A stretch of 14,813 nucleotides of DNA from contig DAHL01000041.1 of the NCBI GenBank assembly GCA_002509225.1, positions 1 to 14,813 of the forward strand, written 5' to 3'. Shown one piece after another: positions 96-13,117 of this stretch. Source of the stretch: Euryarchaeota archaeon UBA102 (GTDB lineage Archaea > Thermoplasmatota > Poseidoniia > MGIII > CG-Epi1). Made by a program: the position numbers and the translations under genes. A model generated the notes under the pieces. That model did no database searches and was not told where the DNA came from. It saw only the letters and a list, made by a program, of their open reading frames with translations. How positions within the stretch are numbered: the first letter of the stretch is position 1; the number at the start of each line of letters is the position of its first letter.

Positions 96-3000
96 TTAGT
101 GGTCTTCTTCTCTGCGGTTGCGTAGTGAGATTCCTACAGCGGCTATCAAACCACTAACCATCATAGATAGGGCGGTTAAGCCGAATGATGGTGTCGTTAT
201 GACCTGCCTTACAGCAGTAATCGTAAACGACTTCTTGTTGTTGCCTTCATCGGATTCGTCTACTGCGAATAGACAGTCAACGAAGACGTTGAATGTGTAG
301 TCTGATCTGCCCTGTCCTTCTGCTGGACCATCGATACCTAGTTCATAGGCTGATGCTGCGAAGTGTAGGTGACCATCGGAGTCTATGAATGAATCATAGG
401 AGCCGTCGGTTGCCCAACCATCGCCAGTCCATGTTAGGCCAATCTGCACACCAGTTAGACCGAGAGCACTCTCGATACCGACTGTAACTGTGCCGACTGT
501 CTCTGTACCATCATTGAGGATTTCTGCCTCAAAGTGGAATAGATTATCGCCTTCTGGACCGCTCTGTTTGACCCATTGTCCGTCTGCAACATAACCGAAG
601 GCACTCATTGTCCATGAGAAACTTCCGATTGATAAGTCAGGCTTGTCAATTATCATGTCAGCTTGACCATCTGCATCTTGGAATTGACCATCACAAGTGC
701 CACTAGATTCAGAGTATGTAGCCCATGTACAAGCATCTGCCTGTAGTGAATAGGTTCCTGGTGGTGCCCATTCAGCGAGTCCTGCAGTTACTTCCATTGT
801 CATAGACATACTAGCTCCTGGAGATACGACTCCAGATGCAGGTCCTGCGAGTGGCTTATCGAAGCCCCAGCTGCTCTTCGATGGGTTGCTTATATCCCAA
901 CCGTGAGGAGCTTCCTGAGACATTGTACCACTTGGCCATGCTACAACACCATTTGCATCTATGAAAGCAGTGTTATCGCCGTCGCCATTTCTTGGATCTG
1001 CAGTATCAGTACCCCAGAATCCTAGAGGTGGTTGAATAGCTACAACAGTGTCGCTGCCATCTTGACCAACGTAGTATAGATTAGCGACTTCGCCGCCATC
1101 TAATGATATCTGTGAACCAGATGGGAATTGAGCTGCAAAGTTAACTACTGCCTGATCCGAACTAGCACCTAGATTTCGTACTGTAACTTCGAAAGGTACA
1201 GCGGTGCTTAGACCGGTAGCTGAAGTTGGTACAGCCTTGGATCCTGAACCGGACATGCCGGTTACGTCCATCTCATATTGGTTTAGACCAAGTACGTAGG
1301 CTGTTGCGTGGAAATCGTCGCCTTCGTAATCATGGCTGAATTCCACACCCCAGTGGTCACTGTTCATTGCATCAGTGTTGATTAGTTTGTTACCATCGTT
1401 ATCTACTACATCACCTAGACGGGCCCAGTATGTTCCTGAACCTGTGCCAGTCCATGCAGCTCCATCACCGTAGAATGATTCTCCACCAGTGTTCTGGTTA
1501 AGCACGTCGTAGCAGTCATCGTGGACACAAACGTCCATTGAGACCATAGCATCGTTCATGTCATAATCAGCTGAAACGACCAAATATGGATCACTGTTCC
1601 ATGGTGCGAACTCTTCACAGCCGTGGTCTGAATCGTGGTCATGGTCACCATGACCATCATCTTCATCACTGAAAGAGCAGGCGTCCATCAAGGTTGCACC
1701 GAGCATCAAGGTCATAGACATACTGTTGTCTGAACCATCTTCATCAGCGGTGCCGTCATTTCTGTTGAGCTCAGCAGATACTACCAGATTATAGATACCT
1801 GGGTCGAGATCTGCACCCCACATCCAGCCGGAGCCGGGTGCTGGGTTAGCGCTGCTAACAGTGTATGAATCTCCTTTAGCCATTTCTACTGGAACGGTGA
1901 ATGGATCAGCTTCCCAGACTGGAGTCATATCGTCATCTACAGAGTAAATTGCTGCAGACACTCTTATGATATCAGTTGAACCATCTTGTGAAACTGTACC
2001 TCTGTTGGTTACAGTTACAGAAAGATCGTGTGCTTCATTAGCTGCCGATAGTGAATCTGTATCGACACCAGAGATACCGATGTTGTTTGCATATTCGTTA
2101 CCTAGAACTGCAATTTCATCGAGTGCAATACCGTCTCCTTCATCAGAACCATCGGTTATGACACGGAAGTCGATATGTATTATCTCGCCCGCGTACGAGC
2201 TCAAGTCGATAGTTGCTTCATTCCATGCGTATGGGAAACCTGGTGTTGAACCAGTGAATTCAGCTAGAACATCCCAGTGAACAGTGTCCCAATACTCATC
2301 GTTAGTATTGCCAACACCTTCTGAGGTTGCTCTGACTTCCATTCTGTCTCCGTTACCCAAATCAGTCATGTAACCGAATGTTAGTATTGGTTCGAAAGCA
2401 GCTCTCAAATCGATTGCTGCATCGTCACCGTACATATTTCCGGAACCATCACGGTCGAATGAACTTGGAGATATGAAACTGTAATCGCCATTTGGACCAT
2501 ATCCTGATGGACCACTAGCAGATACGTCTCCATAGAACCAAGCCTTACATGTGTTCAGATAAGAGTTACATTGACCTGCAGAATTCTTGACTTCATAGTC
2601 AGCGAATACGTCAGATGCTGAGTTTCTCTTTACTTCAAACCATGTATTGTACACACTACCGTCTTCCTGGGCATCATCTACGAAGAATGAATCCAAGATA
2701 CGGAAAGTAGCAGACATTCCATTGTTTGTTGGTATCTGATCATCACCAGGAACTGCAGTAGCAGTCAAGGTGTATGTGTTAGGCTCTAAAGCAGTGAATT
2801 TCATGAAAAGAGCTGTGTCATCAGGGTTCTCTTCGACGTTTCCATAAGTCTGTTCACCAGATAGTGAAATATCAAGAACGGCTGGGTCGCCGAGCTGAAC
2901 ACCATCGCGTGTTAGTTGATTGGTTACGTCATTACCCTGCATATCAGTTACTGTGAGTTCTATTGGCATAACTTCGTATGCTTTTGTACCTAGATTCTGT

Positions 3001-5732
3001 ACAGTAATGTTGATTTCACGGTCTTTGTCCTCGCCTGAAGGCTCATCTTCAATCAAGAATCCTTTATCTCTAACAGAAACGTCAGTGACTGTAACATCAC
3101 GTGATATTCTCTCAGAACCTTGAACTCTAAACTGATCGAATGAGTGTCCGGTAATTCCTTGACCTTCTTCAGCGTATGCACCGTATGCTACACAGATTGA
3201 ATTACATTCGGTCATTTCTTCAGGAGCATACCCGTCACCATTTAGGTCCTCATCATCGTCTGCATTTAGAGCAACGAATCTTACTTTAGTTTGATAGTTT
3301 GTTTCGTCACCAAAGTATGCACCTGGCATATTAGCGCCTAGCCAATCGTATTGATACAATGAACCTAGATGCCCCCAATAACTCATACCTAGACAGGACC
3401 AGATGGACTCATCCCAAACCCAGAAAGTATCCCAAGTTCCTCCACCATCATTTGAAATCTGCCAAACTAAGGCTGAATCGTGAGCTTGGCACATCTTGAA
3501 CCAAGCATGCATGACGACATTTTCCATAGCTGAAAGATCCATAGTAGAGAATTCTACCCACTGATAGATACCTGCAGGTGGAGCGAATTTGATACAATCG
3601 TCATCAGATTCTGTATCTCCTGAATTCCTTTCAGTTGTGGCACTGTCATCATAATCACAGACGCCATCAACGTTATCGTTCATGTACTGGTCTTCTTTGT
3701 ACCAACCTTCCTTGCTAGTAAAGGAGAAACCATATTGGTAAAGGTCCTGATGGAACGGAGCATTCTGAACGTTTGATAACCGAGTCCAGTTGTCAGTTCC
3801 GACATCGTATCCTTGACCTACACGAGGTTGACAAGATTCATCATTTTCTGTATCTGGGTTATCTGCCCAGCAACCATCTTGATCTTCATCAATGTCACTA
3901 ACTCTACGTGCCTCTAGGGTGTAATCATAGTTTCCATCCCATTCTGAAGCGTCTGCACCAAACTCAGCGGTAGCGCCGGTTAGAGCGTCGACTGGTTCTC
4001 CAGAATCTACGATTCTGGCAACAGTTGAATCGAGTAACATGTGGTCGTTAGAAGCGAACGAATCGCTAGAGTCTATGGCTGTGATTAAAGCATGGTCAAA
4101 ACCTGAGCTTGTAAACATTGGATCGTAGCCTATTGCAGAGCCACCATCGAATGAAGTCTGAACACCATAATTATCTGCGTTGAATGTGAACATTACTGAG
4201 TCACCAGGTAGCAGACCTTCGCCAATATTCATAGCGTGGCCGTCCATACCTGCGAAAGCGTCTGTACTGAGGGTGATAGAGTACATTATCTGATCATATT
4301 GATTCACAAGCTGTAAGCTTGCAGATACACTTTCTCTGGTTAAATAACCGTTGTTAGTAACTTCTACTTCTACCTGCATAGGAGTATCAGCTTCAATCTG
4401 TCTTGGGTTCCATTGTGTACCTAGACAGCACTGTACTGGCATGTATACGTGAGTGATAGAAAGATCGACTTCTGCAGTTGCAGAGCTATCTGCTGAAACT
4501 GAGAAGAAATCCATTACAGTTTCAAAGAAAGCTAGACGGTCACTATCAGTATCGAAAACTGATGGTTCTTCAGCGAATAAGAAGGTGTTATAGAAATCAC
4601 CATCATATTCAACAGCGTGCCAATCGTATTCCTTTCCATCGCCTCTCTCATTAGATTCATCTGCATAATAATCGAAGATTATAGAACCTTGAGAAACTGG
4701 ATTACCAGTGATATCTGTACAGCCTGAACCGGCCAAATCACATGGTCTGTATCCACTAGGCCATGAAGGGTATTCCCATGCACGACCGTTACTGGCTAAA
4801 GATGACAAGCCTGCGTCATCGAAAATAGAGCCTGATTCAGATGTCATTGGCACGGAAGTTCCGCCCCAAACATACTGACCACTGAACATACTTCCAGTCC
4901 AGCAGCAGGTTTCGGCCTTGAAGTAACGTGGAATCAAATCCGACTCGTCGGCTAGACTGCCATCATTATCCATGTCAACACCGTATGCTTTAGCTGAATT
5001 GAATTGGAATACAACATCCATGTTCTGAGTCATCAACATTACGTTTCTGTTAGTAGTACAGAAACTGTCACCGTCTCCACATTCACCATCTAGGTACATC
5101 TGAAGAACTAATGATTCACTGTCGGACATTGTCATTTCACCAGGTTCTACACAATTGTAGTTCTCGGCACAGTTCCAGATGACTGCTTCGTAATCGTCCA
5201 TAATGGACAGACCAGCGTCACCGTATGGGAAGTGCCTTGCATCCAGACCACGGTTACCTGCCTGGAAAACATCGTATGAGAATCCACCTTGGTTCAGAGA
5301 CGATAGAACATATTGCTGAGTTGTTAGCGCACTTAGGTAGTCGAAATCAGTTACATCGTCTACTACTAAAATTTTAGCGTCGCCTGCAGGCTGTTTGGCT
5401 GGATAGAACCATCCATCTGCCTCTTGATCAGCGTATATTCCATTGCCGTAGTAATCCTGAGCCCAGTGTTGTTCGAGTTCGGTAGTTCTACCGTTAGCGA
5501 AAGACACTTGTGGAACATCTCTTTCATATACTCCATGAAGTTCATCTGGAGCAAATCCTAGTGCAACTCCCTGAGAATCATTTATCATCTCATGAAGTGC
5601 AACTTCTTGATCTGTGCTGTAGTCATTAGTGGACTCACTTTCCGCGAATATTGCGAAACTGGTGAGGACCATTATGGCTACGACAAAAATCGAGCTTACT
5701 TTTCCTATGTTTATTGCGTTGTTTGCGTTCAT
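96..5732 (-). CDS. Giant secreted, C-terminally membrane-anchored multidomain surface protein
   Basis: This protein of about 1,880 residues is predicted to be exported and held on the outside of the cell. Numbering here is from a GTG three codons upstream (5739-5741). I prefer the ATG at 5730-5732, which has a GAGG-type ribosome-binding match 11 nt upstream. A signal peptide covers about residues 4-33 (hydrophobic core, FAIFA then ESE). Residues 121-415 begin with ILVVDD and resemble the Rossmann-like (ThuA/flavodoxin-like) domain seen in archaeal surface proteins. CARDB-like beta modules lie near 425-560, 880-1000, 1220-1340, 1500-1680 and 1700-1840. Jelly-roll/MAM-like modules lie near 605-870 and 1030-1210 (the latter with IDLSSYAGE and a GIALDEI-type end). 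The C-terminus has PSFG, a hydrophobic helix at 1852-1873 and a RNRREE tail, like a PGF-CTERM-type sorting signal. Asp-rich EF-hand-like loops and more than 25 cysteines suggest calcium binding and disulfides. No catalytic motif was recognised; a role in adhesion or polymer binding is an inference. Confidence 0.88.
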   Translation of the reverse strand: MNANNAINIGKVSSIFVVAIMVLTSFAIFAESESTNDYSTDQEVALHEMINDSQGVALGFAPDELHGVYERDVPQVSFANGRTTELEQHWAQDYYGNGIYADQEADGWFYPAKQPAGDAKILVVDDVTDFDYLSALTTQQYVLSSLNQGGFSYDVFQAGNRGLDARHFPYGDAGLSIMDDYEAVIWNCAENYNCVEPGEMTMSDSESLVLQMYLDGECGDGDSFCTTNRNVMLMTQNMDVVFQFNSAKAYGVDMDNDGSLADESDLIPRYFKAETCCWTGSMFSGQYVWGGTSVPMTSESGSIFDDAGLSSLASNGRAWEYPSWPSGYRPCDLAGSGCTDITGNPVSQGSIIFDYYADESNERGDGKEYDWHAVEYDGDFYNTFLFAEEPSVFDTDSDRLAFFETVMDFFSVSADSSATAEVDLSITHVYMPVQCCLGTQWNPRQIEADTPMQVEVEVTNNGYLTRESVSASLQLVNQYDQIMYSITLSTDAFAGMDGHAMNIGEGLLPGDSVMFTFNADNYGVQTSFDGGSAIGYDPMFTSSGFDHALITAIDSSDSFASNDHMLLDSTVARIVDSGEPVDALTGATAEFGADASEWDGNYDYTLEARRVSDIDEDQDGCWADNPDTENDESCQPRVGQGYDVGTDNWTRLSNVQNAPFHQDLYQYGFSFTSKEGWYKEDQYMNDNVDGVCDYDDSATTERNSGDTESDDDCIKFAPPAGIYQWVEFSTMDLSAMENVVMHAWFKMCQAHDSALVWQISNDGGGTWDTFWVWDESIWSCLGMSYWGHLGSLYQYDWLGANMPGAYFGDETNYQTKVRFVALNADDDEDLNGDGYAPEEMTECNSICVAYGAYAEEGQGITGHSFDQFRVQGSERISRDVTVTDVSVRDKGFLIEDEPSGEDKDREINITVQNLGTKAYEVMPIELTVTDMQGNDVTNQLTRDGVQLGDPAVLDISLSGEQTYGNVEENPDDTALFMKFTALEPNTYTLTATAVPGDDQIPTNNGMSATFRILDSFFVDDAQEDGSVYNTWFEVKRNSASDVFADYEVKNSAGQCNSYLNTCKAWFYGDVSASGPSGYGPNGDYSFISPSSFDRDGSGNMYGDDAAIDLRAAFEPILTFGYMTDLGNGDRMEVRATSEGVGNTNDEYWDTVHWDVLAEFTGSTPGFPYAWNEATIDLSSYAGEIIHIDFRVITDGSDEGDGIALDEIAVLGNEYANNIGISGVDTDSLSAANEAHDLSVTVTNRGTVSQDGSTDIIRVSAAIYSVDDDMTPVWEADPFTVPVEMAKGDSYTVSSANPAPGSGWMWGADLDPGIYNLVVSAELNRNDGTADEDGSDNSMSMTLMLGATLMDACSFSDEDDGHGDHDHDSDHGCEEFAPWNSDPYLVVSADYDMNDAMVSMDVCVHDDCYDVLNQNTGGESFYGDGAAWTGTGSGTYWARLGDVVDNDGNKLINTDAMNSDHWGVEFSHDYEGDDFHATAYVLGLNQYEMDVTGMSGSGSKAVPTSATGLSTAVPFEVTVRNLGASSDQAVVNFAAQFPSGSQISLDGGEVANLYYVGQDGSDTVVAIQPPLGFWGTDTADPRNGDGDNTAFIDANGVVAWPSGTMSQEAPHGWDISNPSKSSWGFDKPLAGPASGVVSPGASMSMTMEVTAGLAEWAPPGTYSLQADACTWATYSESSGTCDGQFQDADGQADMIIDKPDLSIGSFSWTMSAFGYVADGQWVKQSGPEGDNLFHFEAEILNDGTETVGTVTVGIESALGLTGVQIGLTWTGDGWATDGSYDSFIDSDGHLHFAASAYELGIDGPAEGQGRSDYTFNVFVDCLFAVDESDEGNNKKSFTITAVRQVITTPSFGLTALSMMVSGLIAAVGISLRNRREEDH

Positions 5733-5755
5733 TTGAAACACACCCTCGTTTCTTA

Positions 5756-10247: not shown

Positions 10248-11012
10248 ATGAAAATAACGTTCTTGGGTGTTGGAGAAGCTTTTGATGAAAAAGAGAGTCA
10301 TGTTTGCATACTTGTTGAGGCAAGCGGAAGAAGAATGATAATTGATTGTGGGGCCACTGCGCCTCCTGCAATATGGAAAAACTGTGAAAGAGCAGATTAT
10401 CTCGATGGTATTTTCATATCGCACTTTCATGCAGATCATTTCTTTGGGCTACCTGCCCTTATGATGAGAATGTGGGAAGATGGAAGAACAAGGCCGTTCT
10501 ATCTATTTGGACCGCTCGGAATGCAAAAGAAAGTGGAAGTGTTAATGGAAAGTGCTTATCCAGGTAGTATGCCAAGAAGAGATGGAAAAGAAGGTGGAAT
10601 ACCATTTACATTAAGATTTAGAGAATTACAAAGATCTCACCGATGGGATGATTGGAATTTGAGAGTTGTCAATACTAAGCATTCAGTACAGAATCTGGGT
10701 CTAAGATTGGAAGCTGGAAAAAAGGTCCTATGTTATTCAGGCGATGGAATGTTTACACCGACCGCAGCTAAACTTTATTCAGGTGCAGACTTGATAGTGC
10801 ATGAAGCGTACTTAGAATCATCAGCAGAATTAAGAAAAAAGACTCATTGTACAGTAGATCAATTAGAAAGATTGGATGATATGGCGAGACCTAAACAAAT
10901 GGCACTTGTTCATCTTCAAAGAAATCTAAGGAAAAAGAAGGCATCGATATTGAAAAAGAATAGAACCCGAAATTGGATAATTCCAAAACAGGGTGAAGTT
11001 ATAGAGATATAA
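10248..11012 (+). CDS. RNase Z-like metallo-beta-lactamase-fold hydrolase
   Basis: This 254-residue protein has the metallo-beta-lactamase fold of the RNase Z/ElaC type, probably a phosphodiesterase. The zinc ligands are visible: HFHADH at 59-64, His145 in TKHS, Asp166 in YSGDG and His222 in VHLQ. VHEAY at 184-188 and the Thr-His at 199-200 also match RNase Z homologues. Canonical RNase Z enzymes are about 300 residues with a long flexible tRNA-binding arm. Here the corresponding region (about 103-130) is short, so pre-tRNA 3' processing is possible but not certain. A neighbouring tRNA gene encodes its own CCA. The ATG has a GGGAG site 8 nt upstream. The queD-like gene follows 9 nt after the stop, so the two are probably co-transcribed. 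Confidence 0.85.
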   Translation: MKITFLGVGEAFDEKESHVCILVEASGRRMIIDCGATAPPAIWKNCERADYLDGIFISHFHADHFFGLPALMMRMWEDGRTRPFYLFGPLGMQKKVEVLMESAYPGSMPRRDGKEGGIPFTLRFRELQRSHRWDDWNLRVVNTKHSVQNLGLRLEAGKKVLCYSGDGMFTPTAAKLYSGADLIVHEAYLESSAELRKKTHCTVDQLERLDDMARPKQMALVHLQRNLRKKKASILKKNRTRNWIIPKQGEVIEI

Positions 11013-11021
11013 TCGAAATTG

Positions 11022-11384
11022 ATGGGTGAATACGAGCTAGTACACACAATAAGATTTGAGTCTGCTCGAAAATTAACGAAAGTTCCAGATGGGCATCCAT
11101 GTGGCAACATCTATGGTTTGTCTTTCAAATTGGATATACACGTAAGAGGTCCGCTAGATAATGAGACCGATTGGGTAATCGATTTTGATGATATAGAAAA
11201 AGATTTTGAACCGCTAAAAAAACAGATAGATCATAATTATCTAAATGACGTGAAGGGGCTTGAAAATCCGACTACAGAAGTGTTGATAACTTGGATATGG
11301 AATGAATTGAAACCGGTAATGCCGAACCTTACTAAACTGGTATTGAAAGAGAATGAAAAATCTAGAGTGATCTATTCTGGATAA
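11022..11384 (+). CDS. QueD/6-pyruvoyltetrahydropterin synthase homologue lacking the zinc ligands
   Basis: This 120-residue protein has the T-fold sequence of QueD (6-carboxytetrahydropterin synthase, queuosine/archaeosine and pterin pathways). From the ATG at 11022-11024, numbering matches E. coli QueD (recalled from memory) without gaps over the N-terminal region and on to Glu110. Kept are Cys27 (GHPCG), Asp70-His71 (IDHNYLND), ENPTTEVL and Glu110. The three zinc-binding histidines are not kept: the usual AAH is A-R at Arg16, and HGH is Tyr31-Gly-Leu33. Codons CGA, TAT and TTG were read directly; two of the three changes need more than one base difference. It may be a catalytically altered or pterin-binding paralogue. 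A TTG one codon upstream (11019) is a less likely start. It sits 9 nt after the RNase Z-like gene and ends 2 nt from the convergent tRNA. Confidence 0.85.
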   Translation: MGEYELVHTIRFESARKLTKVPDGHPCGNIYGLSFKLDIHVRGPLDNETDWVIDFDDIEKDFEPLKKQIDHNYLNDVKGLENPTTEVLITWIWNELKPVMPNLTKLVLKENEKSRVIYSG

Positions 11385-11386
11385 GA

Positions 11387-11462
11387 TGGCGCCCGGACCG
11401 GGATTTGAACCCAGGTTCGAAGCTCCGCAAGCTCCAGTGATTCCAGACTACACTATCCGGGC
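11387..11462 (-). tRNA. tRNA-Arg (anticodon GCG), 3' CCA encoded
   Basis: The minus strand folds as a full cloverleaf. The acceptor GCCCGGA pairs with TCCGGGC, followed by discriminator G and an encoded CCA (11387-11389). The D arm has a GTG/CAC stem with G15, the GG pair and A20. The anticodon stem GGAGC/GCTTC encloses the loop TTGCGGA, giving anticodon GCG, which reads CGC and CGU. The variable loop has 4 nt. The T arm is CTGGG-TTCAAAT-CCCGG. A20 and discriminator G fit archaeal arginine identity. No intron is needed. G15 is the position modified to archaeosine in archaea. The gene is antisense to, and only 2 nt from, the end of the queD-like gene. Confidence 0.95.
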
Positions 11463-12421: not shown

Positions 12422-13117
12422 ATGATAGAATGGATTGAAGGGATTTGGAGTAGTCCTTGGGAGCTGTACTTCAGAGGGTTAATCCTATTACCTGTAATAG
12501 TCAGAATTATACTGTGGTCAGGACCTGTAGCTACGGGAATTAGAATTCACGGTATTCATGTTAGATGGATATTTGAAAGACTTGGAGATTTCCCAAGAGG
12601 ATATGCGATAGCTGCCAGTGCAATTGTTGGATTACTTGTTCCAGCCATTGTTGGACTTTCGAGATTTGCAATAGGATCGTTTGGAGGAAGTTGGGGAAGT
12701 ACGAGTGATGAGCAAATTTATGCAATACTAATATTCATATTCATACATACGATATTAGACTCTAGAAGAGTATGGAATGGAAGGGGGTTGTTAGTAAAAA
12801 TGGTTAAATTTGATATTGAAAAATATAAACCATTAATAGACAGAATGGTCTCAATGAGGAATTGGTTGAAACCTGAACACCATGATGATGGTAATGAACC
12901 GTGGGAAGAAGGAACTGCTCTTTTCAATGTAAAAAAAATGTTTCAAGAGACAGTTGGAACTATAGCAGATATGGCGATAGACAAAACAACAGATATAGCC
13001 GATAAGATAATGGAAAAACCTGATGTTATGTTAAAGAAATGGGTTCCCAGAAACATAGCTGTTGCTGTTGGCTTCCATCTTGCACCAGTAGTCTTTGTCT
13101 ACTTTATGTTAAGTTAA
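12422..13117 (+). CDS. Uncharacterised membrane protein with four predicted helices
   Basis: I do not recognise this 231-residue protein. Hydrophobic segments lie at about 17-34, 61-84, 98-113 and 211-230. Between the third and fourth is a soluble, charged region of about 95 residues with EHHDDGNEPWEEG at 152-164. An amphipathic stretch follows (about 172-206) with repeated spacing of DMAIDKTTDIADKIME type. No signal peptide cleavage site or catalytic motif is evident. The ATG has a TATA-like element 26 bp upstream. The stop TAA overlaps that of the convergent UPF0200 gene: the palindrome TTAA at 13114-13117 supplies both stops. It appears to be a single-gene unit. Confidence 0.75.
   Translation: MIEWIEGIWSSPWELYFRGLILLPVIVRIILWSGPVATGIRIHGIHVRWIFERLGDFPRGYAIAASAIVGLLVPAIVGLSRFAIGSFGGSWGSTSDEQIYAILIFIFIHTILDSRRVWNGRGLLVKMVKFDIEKYKPLIDRMVSMRNWLKPEHHDDGNEPWEEGTALFNVKKMFQETVGTIADMAIDKTTDIADKIMEKPDVMLKKWVPRNIAVAVGFHLAPVVFVYFMLS

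Follow-up and report, generated by a model that had tools for sequence, protein, structure and literature searches.

Can a protein of the QueD fold remain in use as an enzyme after all three histidines of its zinc site have been exchanged for other residues? This question is raised by a gene at positions 11022..11384 (+ strand) of a 14,813-nucleotide contig, DAHL01000041.1, of Euryarchaeota archaeon UBA102, the whole of which is called the window below. The open reading frame runs through 120 residues with no inner stop, and its translation (protein P0001) matches PF01242 with 82.6 bits against a cut-off of 22.4, which places it in the PTPS superfamily (PF01242 / COG0720); PF01242 is the sole Pfam family that it matches at an E-value of 0.001 or better. 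We call this protein and its relatives with Arg16, Tyr31 and Leu33 RYL proteins, and on the comparisons described here we regard RYL as a new subfamily of COG0720.

Replacement of the zinc triad and retention of the catalytic residues

The window protein aligns by phmmer with E. coli QueD (chain 4ntm_A) from residue 9 to residue 120 in both proteins without a gap, which confirms that the E. coli numbering used in an initial annotation of this DNA is correct. At positions 16, 31 and 33, where E. coli QueD has the histidines that serve as its zinc ligands, the window gene encodes Arg16 (CGA, 11067..11069), Tyr31 (TAT, 11112-11114) and Leu33 (TTG, 11118-11120), the last two being the ends of a Tyr31-Gly32-Leu33 stretch (11112..11120) that stands where the zinc-binding His-Gly-His (HGH) is expected. 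Cys27 (TGT, 11100..11102), the pair Asp70-His71 (11229..11234; GAT at 11229-11231 and CAT at 11232-11234) and Glu110 (GAG, 11349-11351) are retained; the first three are catalytic residues in QueD and Glu110 is its pterin anchor. Codons and alignment together thus bear out the residue assignments of the initial annotation.

How widely is this triad shared? The homologue set consists of 120 of the 124 protein-search matches, those that were listed, and with the query 121 proteins were aligned; residues were counted on 120 rows, since P0014 has no letters at the triad columns. R-Y-L is found in 81 of these 120 homologues, H-H-H in 38 and R-H-N in one. Position 16 is R in 81/81 RYL rows and H in 38/38 HHH relatives, Tyr31 and Leu33 are each present in 81/81 RYL rows, and in the same rows Asp70 and His71 are invariant (81/81 each), Cys27 is kept in 80/81 and Glu110 in 78 of the 80 that have a letter there. 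The triad change is therefore beyond what chance would give, since three of three positions differ while Cys27, Asp70, His71 and Glu110 are kept, and since 81 of the 120 homologues share the triad. Judged from the alignment columns, the difference between the RYL and HHH types extends past the three zinc positions. Glu110 is followed in the RYL clade by Asn111 (77/79), Ser114 (78/79) and Arg or Lys at position 115 (78/79), and these residues, with Arg115, occupy 11349..11366 in the window; position 26 is Pro in 79/81 RYL rows as against Lys in 37/38 of the HHH type; and His40 is invariant (81/81 RYL rows).

The sampled rows with this triad (44 RYL and one R-Y-Q) form a single clade even when columns 16, 31 and 33 are removed, with support of 99/100, 100/100 and 100/99 in three trees that rest on short alignments (116-118 columns) and leave many inner forks poorly resolved. 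The suggestion that R16/Y31/L33 might be conserved as a clade therefore holds. In a quick tree the window protein branches outside a group made up of P0053 and 19 other rows from archaea of the MGIII type, our label for 19 archaeal genomes that share gene order with locus L004 (Candidatus Poseidoniia archaeon, A2.5-MGIII).

Maintenance of the RYL protein

Ratios of nonsynonymous to synonymous substitution (dN/dS, Nei-Gojobori) are 0.046-0.338 in 12 pairs of RYL coding sequences of more than 84% protein identity, a set that leaves out P0002 and P0003, the closest relatives of the window protein. The two highest values involve the R-Y-Q copy, L099, and the next highest belongs to a pair in which synonymous changes are very scarce. 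An AlphaFold2 model of the RYL protein has a mean pLDDT (predicted local distance difference test) of 97.7 and lies within about 1 Å of QueD structures on superposition, and it has the tunnel-fold monomer of the PTPS superfamily. The initial annotation had read the gene as a maintained protein rather than decay, and had proposed dN/dS and structure modelling as checks; purifying selection between relatives, the confident QueD-like model, the clade-wide triad and the support of the clade all agree with it. Strain-specific decay or a sequencing or assembly error, for which no evidence was found, is ruled out by the same triad in 81/120 homologues, by the clade support and by dN/dS well below 1. 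One copy, that of genome G023, is split; an insertion was considered there and rejected, the scaffold having a stretch of undetermined bases at the split.

Carriers and gene order

Among the best 80 loci of a genome scan, four are of the RYL type (three metagenome-assembled genomes (MAGs) of Myxococcota and the MGIII archaeon L004), and the other 76 consist of 75 HHH and one R-H-H (RHH; L045, Tepidiphilus). In the archaeal class of L004, 19 of 292 genomes match the RYL protein; these are the 19 MGIII-type genomes, which were thus selected by their match to RYL and are incomplete. All 19 carry the type, with Arg16 and Tyr31 in 19/19, Leu33 in 18 and Gln33 in the remaining one (R-Y-Q copy L099 of genome G005). 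In Myxococcota, the phylum of one carrier, 17 of 377 genomes match at an E-value of 1e-35, ten with RYL and seven with HHH.

A phage origin of RYL was considered and rejected: the one match to P0020 in a scan of viral contigs is distant (36% identity), and P0001 matches four phage-collection records, all at less than 60% identity and one of them a Salmonella record.

The RYL gene lies 9 bases behind a gene for an RNase Z-like protein of the metallo-beta-lactamase fold (10248..11012, + strand), and the two genes stand together in each of the 18 related archaeal loci that were compared, G031 not being among them. All 18 hold an RYL-type gene at this place, so that sister genomes with the normal histidine motifs at the locus, an outcome that would have overturned the initial annotation, were not found there. 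The gene order common to the window and the MGIII-type loci is Trm5-like, GcvH, GcvT, eIF1A, Rio1, KH protein, RNase Z-like and RYL, followed in stretches that are long enough by PurE and Rpr2. This shared order makes an MGIII-like archaeon the most probable source of the window, even though its RYL protein branches apart in the quick tree. In the window a tRNA-Arg(GCG) gene (11387..11462, - strand) stands just downstream of RYL.

Two other open reading frames of the window have counterparts in the MGIII-type loci. One (96-5741, - strand) encodes an 1881-residue protein with weak CARDB and MAM-type matches, and related reading frames of about 29-35% identity lie in the same place; the other (12422-13117, + strand) encodes a 231-residue, possibly membrane, protein with no Pfam or NCBIfam match, kept at 38-41% identity.

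In the ten Myxococcota stretches with RYL, none of the window's other genes was found near RYL (10/10), and no pathway gene was recognised beside it. A reading frame that clusters with protein kinases adjoins RYL or lies near it in 9 of these 10 loci (L001, L002, L003 and L268-L274), and in L001 and L003 a profile match bears out the kinase domain. Protein kinases are common in Myxococcota, and we therefore give this neighbourhood no weight.

PreQ0 and folate genes in RYL genomes

If the RYL protein made preQ0 or archaeosine precursors, or served folate synthesis, are the partner genes of those pathways present? No que or fol gene was recognised beside RYL in the window. Across the 19 MGIII-type genomes, TGT was found in 15 (two of them partial), full-length QueC in six (with a partial copy in G023 and weak short matches elsewhere), strong QueE-like matches in five, none of which is above the cut-off, and FolE in seven. 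A FolP-sized pterin-binding protein is full-length in eight and fragmentary in two, and FolB was found in one of the 19, as a fragment in G011. Neither FolE2/MptA nor HPPK was found in any of the 19; in the wider sets searched, none of 30 genomes gave FolE2/MptA and none of 27 archaeal genomes gave HPPK, for which archaea have an alternative kinase, MptE, that was not searched for.

In the six MGIII-type genomes with full-length QueC, that gene lies on another contig than RYL (five genomes) or about 25 kb off (G005), and RYL shows no QueD-like clustering or co-occurrence with FolE, QueE or QueC in the MGIII-type genomes. The initial annotation had called for a search for a second, canonical QueD, and the outcome is divided. 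In 8 of the 19 genomes RYL is the only PTPS found, and in those eight no FolE, QueE or full QueC was found; the others have a second copy, with His-Gly-Tyr (HGY) in five, with Arg16 and an intact HGH in five, and with the full HHH triad in G023. A role of RYL in preQ0 or archaeosine synthesis is not supported, RYL being the only PTPS found in 8/19 genomes and QueC being unlinked to it.

Eight genomes of the same class, for which we infer the label MGII-type (G006, G008, G010, G012, G014, G016, G018 and G020), served as controls. All eight have FolB, FolP, FolE, QueC, TGT and one PTPS; this PTPS has HHH in seven, the G008 copy is gapped in the alignment at position 16, and at an E-value of 0.001 no match to the window protein was obtained from any of the eight. 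Within the archaeal class, then, RYL goes with near-absence of FolB, in genomes that were picked for carrying RYL. The Myxococcota carriers have FolB in 9/10 and HPPK in 10/10. A genome setting like that of PTPS-III (FolP without FolB) thus fits the MGIII-type genomes (FolB 1/19, full-length FolP 8/19) but not Myxococcota (FolB 9/10).

Other PTPS lineages with altered triads

A search from the R-H-N (RHN) protein P0102 gave 16 proteins including itself, 11 of them R-H-N and five H-H-H. The 11 protein clusters with R16/H31/N33 (P0102 and P0122-P0131) form their own clade (support 100/99); all 11 rows keep Cys27, Asp70, His71 and Glu110, and nine have Asn111. One of them, P0127 from a Rhodospirillales MAG, bears the name QueD in its source. 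The RHH form, with Arg16 and an intact HGH, is the second archaeal PTPS of G004, G005, G017, G031 and G033 (L083, L107-L111 and L113). In the three loci examined (L114, L117 and L118) it stands between MetRS-like and XTP-pyrophosphatase-like genes, recognised from sequence, and in G033 and G031 its contig also carries TGT. R16/H31/H33 is also found in a stand-alone QueD-like protein of the Tepidiphilus MAG (L045:6417-6743), whose neighbours look ATPase-, HslU- and topoisomerase-like by eye; que genes were not recognised among them.

Five MGIII-type genomes (G011, G027, G021, G019 and G035) have FolE-QueE-QueC-QueD clusters (L208-L212) in which QueD has HGY and not HGH in five of five. The G027 copy, the one copy tested, matches the phage family phrog_2389 with 130.7 bits, and the preQ0 genes of these five clusters are possibly virus-derived. 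The HHH copy of G023 looks like those of the MGII-type rows and may have been assigned to this genome by faulty binning. Arg16 recurs in several branches (RYL, RHN, and RHH both in MGIII-type genomes and in L045). The trees prefer two to three changes to Arg16, while one clade of all Arg16 rows is not rejected by the approximately unbiased test (p-value 0.337), with long branches meeting. A recurrent step from His16 to Arg is suggested by these sequences.

Possible functions of the RYL protein

What might a PTPS protein without its zinc histidines do? We put at about even the chance that the RYL subfamily is an enzyme acting on pterin-like substrates and working without catalytic zinc; its metal-free state, its catalysis, its substrate and the role of Arg16 are all inferences. 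The tunnel-fold pocket would hold the pterin via Glu110, and Cys27, Asp70 and His71 would carry out acid-base chemistry on the pterin side chain. Arg16, probably assisted by Arg115 and Asn111, would provide at the side-chain hydroxyl or oxyanion the positive charge that formerly came from zinc; Tyr31 is a possible proton donor, and Leu33 would close the vacated metal site. The activity that we favour is that of a metal-free pterin side-chain lyase or aldolase. In MGIII-type archaea it might make 6-hydroxymethyl-dihydropterin from 7,8-dihydroneopterin, free or phosphorylated, which is the side-chain cleavage of folate synthesis and the step of FolB. We propose this folate role tentatively, regarding it as rather unlikely, on the ground that no FolB was found in 18 of the 19 genomes. 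FolB has the same fold and is a metal-free precedent. Also doubtful, and offered as a conjecture, is the wider idea that the tunnel-fold family may have shed its catalytic zinc through exchange of a ligand His for Arg, with RYL as the end state and RHN and RHH as steps or parallel attempts, RYL replacing FolB in MGIII as a third solution besides FolB and the zinc-dependent PTPS-III.

Several observations weigh against this view of the RYL protein. FolB (9/10) and HPPK (10/10) in the Myxococcota carriers would make a folate role redundant there, and they argue against RYL as a general replacement of FolB. FolE in only seven of the 19 MGIII-type genomes, with no FolE2/MptA in the 30 searched, leaves the pterin supply of most of them uncertain, and no HPPK was found in the 27 archaeal genomes, in which MptE was not searched for. 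RYL is without the published PTPS-III motif ExxHGH; Glu110 departs in 2/80 sequences and Cys27 in 1/81; and the 19 genomes that lack FolB almost throughout are both incomplete and chosen for carrying RYL.

The main rival is a pseudoenzyme, that is, a non-catalytic sensor, carrier or partner (for example of the adjacent RNase Z-like protein) that binds a pterin or nucleotide. In its favour are the loss of three of three zinc positions and the place of the gene 9 bases behind the RNase Z-like gene in a block of tRNA and ribosome genes, a pairing kept in 18/18 archaeal loci compared; nor were que or fol genes recognised next to RYL in the window. The pairing does not extend to all carriers, however, there being no RNase Z-like relative near RYL in 10/10 Myxococcota stretches, and a pure binder would not need the Cys27, Asp70 and His71 that are near-invariant in 81 sequences. 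We judge a pseudoenzyme possible but on the whole improbable. The catalytic set that is intact across the clade, together with the eight of 19 genomes in which RYL is the only PTPS found, leads us to lean toward a working zinc-free enzyme over a pure binder. Those eight genomes bear also on the idea that RYL is a regulatory or structural subunit mixed with ordinary QueD in a hexamer: a partner is at hand in some carriers (HHH in G001, G002 and G023, RHH in five archaeal genomes and phage-type HGY in five), but no second PTPS was found in the eight, and the candidate partners are of unlike types, so we think a mixed hexamer very unlikely. Could RYL instead be an ordinary CPH4 synthase (QueD) whose zinc, or some other metal, is bound through different residues? 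The fold is that of QueD, His25 and His71 are kept and His40 is invariant in the RYL clade. His40 is, however, opposite in strand parity to residues 31 and 33 and, judging from strand 31-44 of the model, should face away from the site; Arg16 and Leu33 are not zinc ligands, and no link of RYL to preQ0 genes was found. We consider this explanation unlikely.

A large clade that is under selection and has no zinc site leaves two possibilities: either the chemistry can proceed without zinc, and the mechanism would have to be reconsidered, or RYL has a function in marine archaea and Myxococcota that has escaped notice. A metal-free QueD-like enzyme, if true, would add to zinc-sparing biology. Some RYL proteins (P0018, for example) have been named automatically as 6-pyruvoyltetrahydropterin/6-carboxytetrahydropterin synthase or QueD, and such names on RYL and RHN proteins may lead to false predictions of archaeosine or queuosine synthesis. 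No description of a QueD without zinc ligands was recognised in the literature searched, coverage of which was partial; PMC9508795 lists QueD as requiring zinc.

Comparison with known systems

RYL resembles QueD / PTPS-I (E. coli QueD, PDB 4ntm and 4ntk) in fold, in length, in its gapless alignment and in Cys27, Asp70, His71 and Glu110, but all three zinc histidines are replaced and the preQ0 gene context is absent. The window protein scores 74.6 bits against the cut-off of 89.25 for TIGR03367, the NCBIfam QueD equivalog. All five RYL proteins tried fall below that cut-off (68.6-83.1) and all seven HHH relatives lie above it (98.6-116.2), one RHN (83.9) and one RHH (84.3) protein also being below; the broader 6PTHBS cut-off does not tell the types apart, as the HHH controls miss it as well. 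RYL has catalytic residues of the PTPS type and not the FolB set, and it differs from FolB (dihydroneopterin aldolase) also in giving no PF02152 match, PF01242 being its only family at the threshold used, and in an identity of 7-15% in structural alignments.

COG0720 is treated in PMC5041015 as a case study of one family that serves several pterin pathways, and the three subfamily motifs given there all contain HGH, with CxxxHGH for QueD and ExxHGH for PTPS-III. The QueD motif reads CxxxYGL in RYL. PTPS-III, which forms 6-hydroxymethyl-dihydropterin, belongs to the same family as RYL, but RYL has no Glu at position 28 (Ser 54, Gly 19, Ala 6 and Lys 2, in 81/81 rows) and no HGH, and identity with PTPS-III by motif was rejected on these grounds. 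Zur-regulated QueD2 paralogues are second QueD copies tied to low zinc; they are reported in PMC2770081 to retain the zinc residues that RYL has lost. The phage-type QueD (phrog_2389), RHN and RHH are likewise PTPS lineages with an altered zinc triad. RHN and RHH lie on branches separate from RYL in trees that do not include the phage type, and each of the three types still has one or two histidines of the triad, whereas RYL has none.
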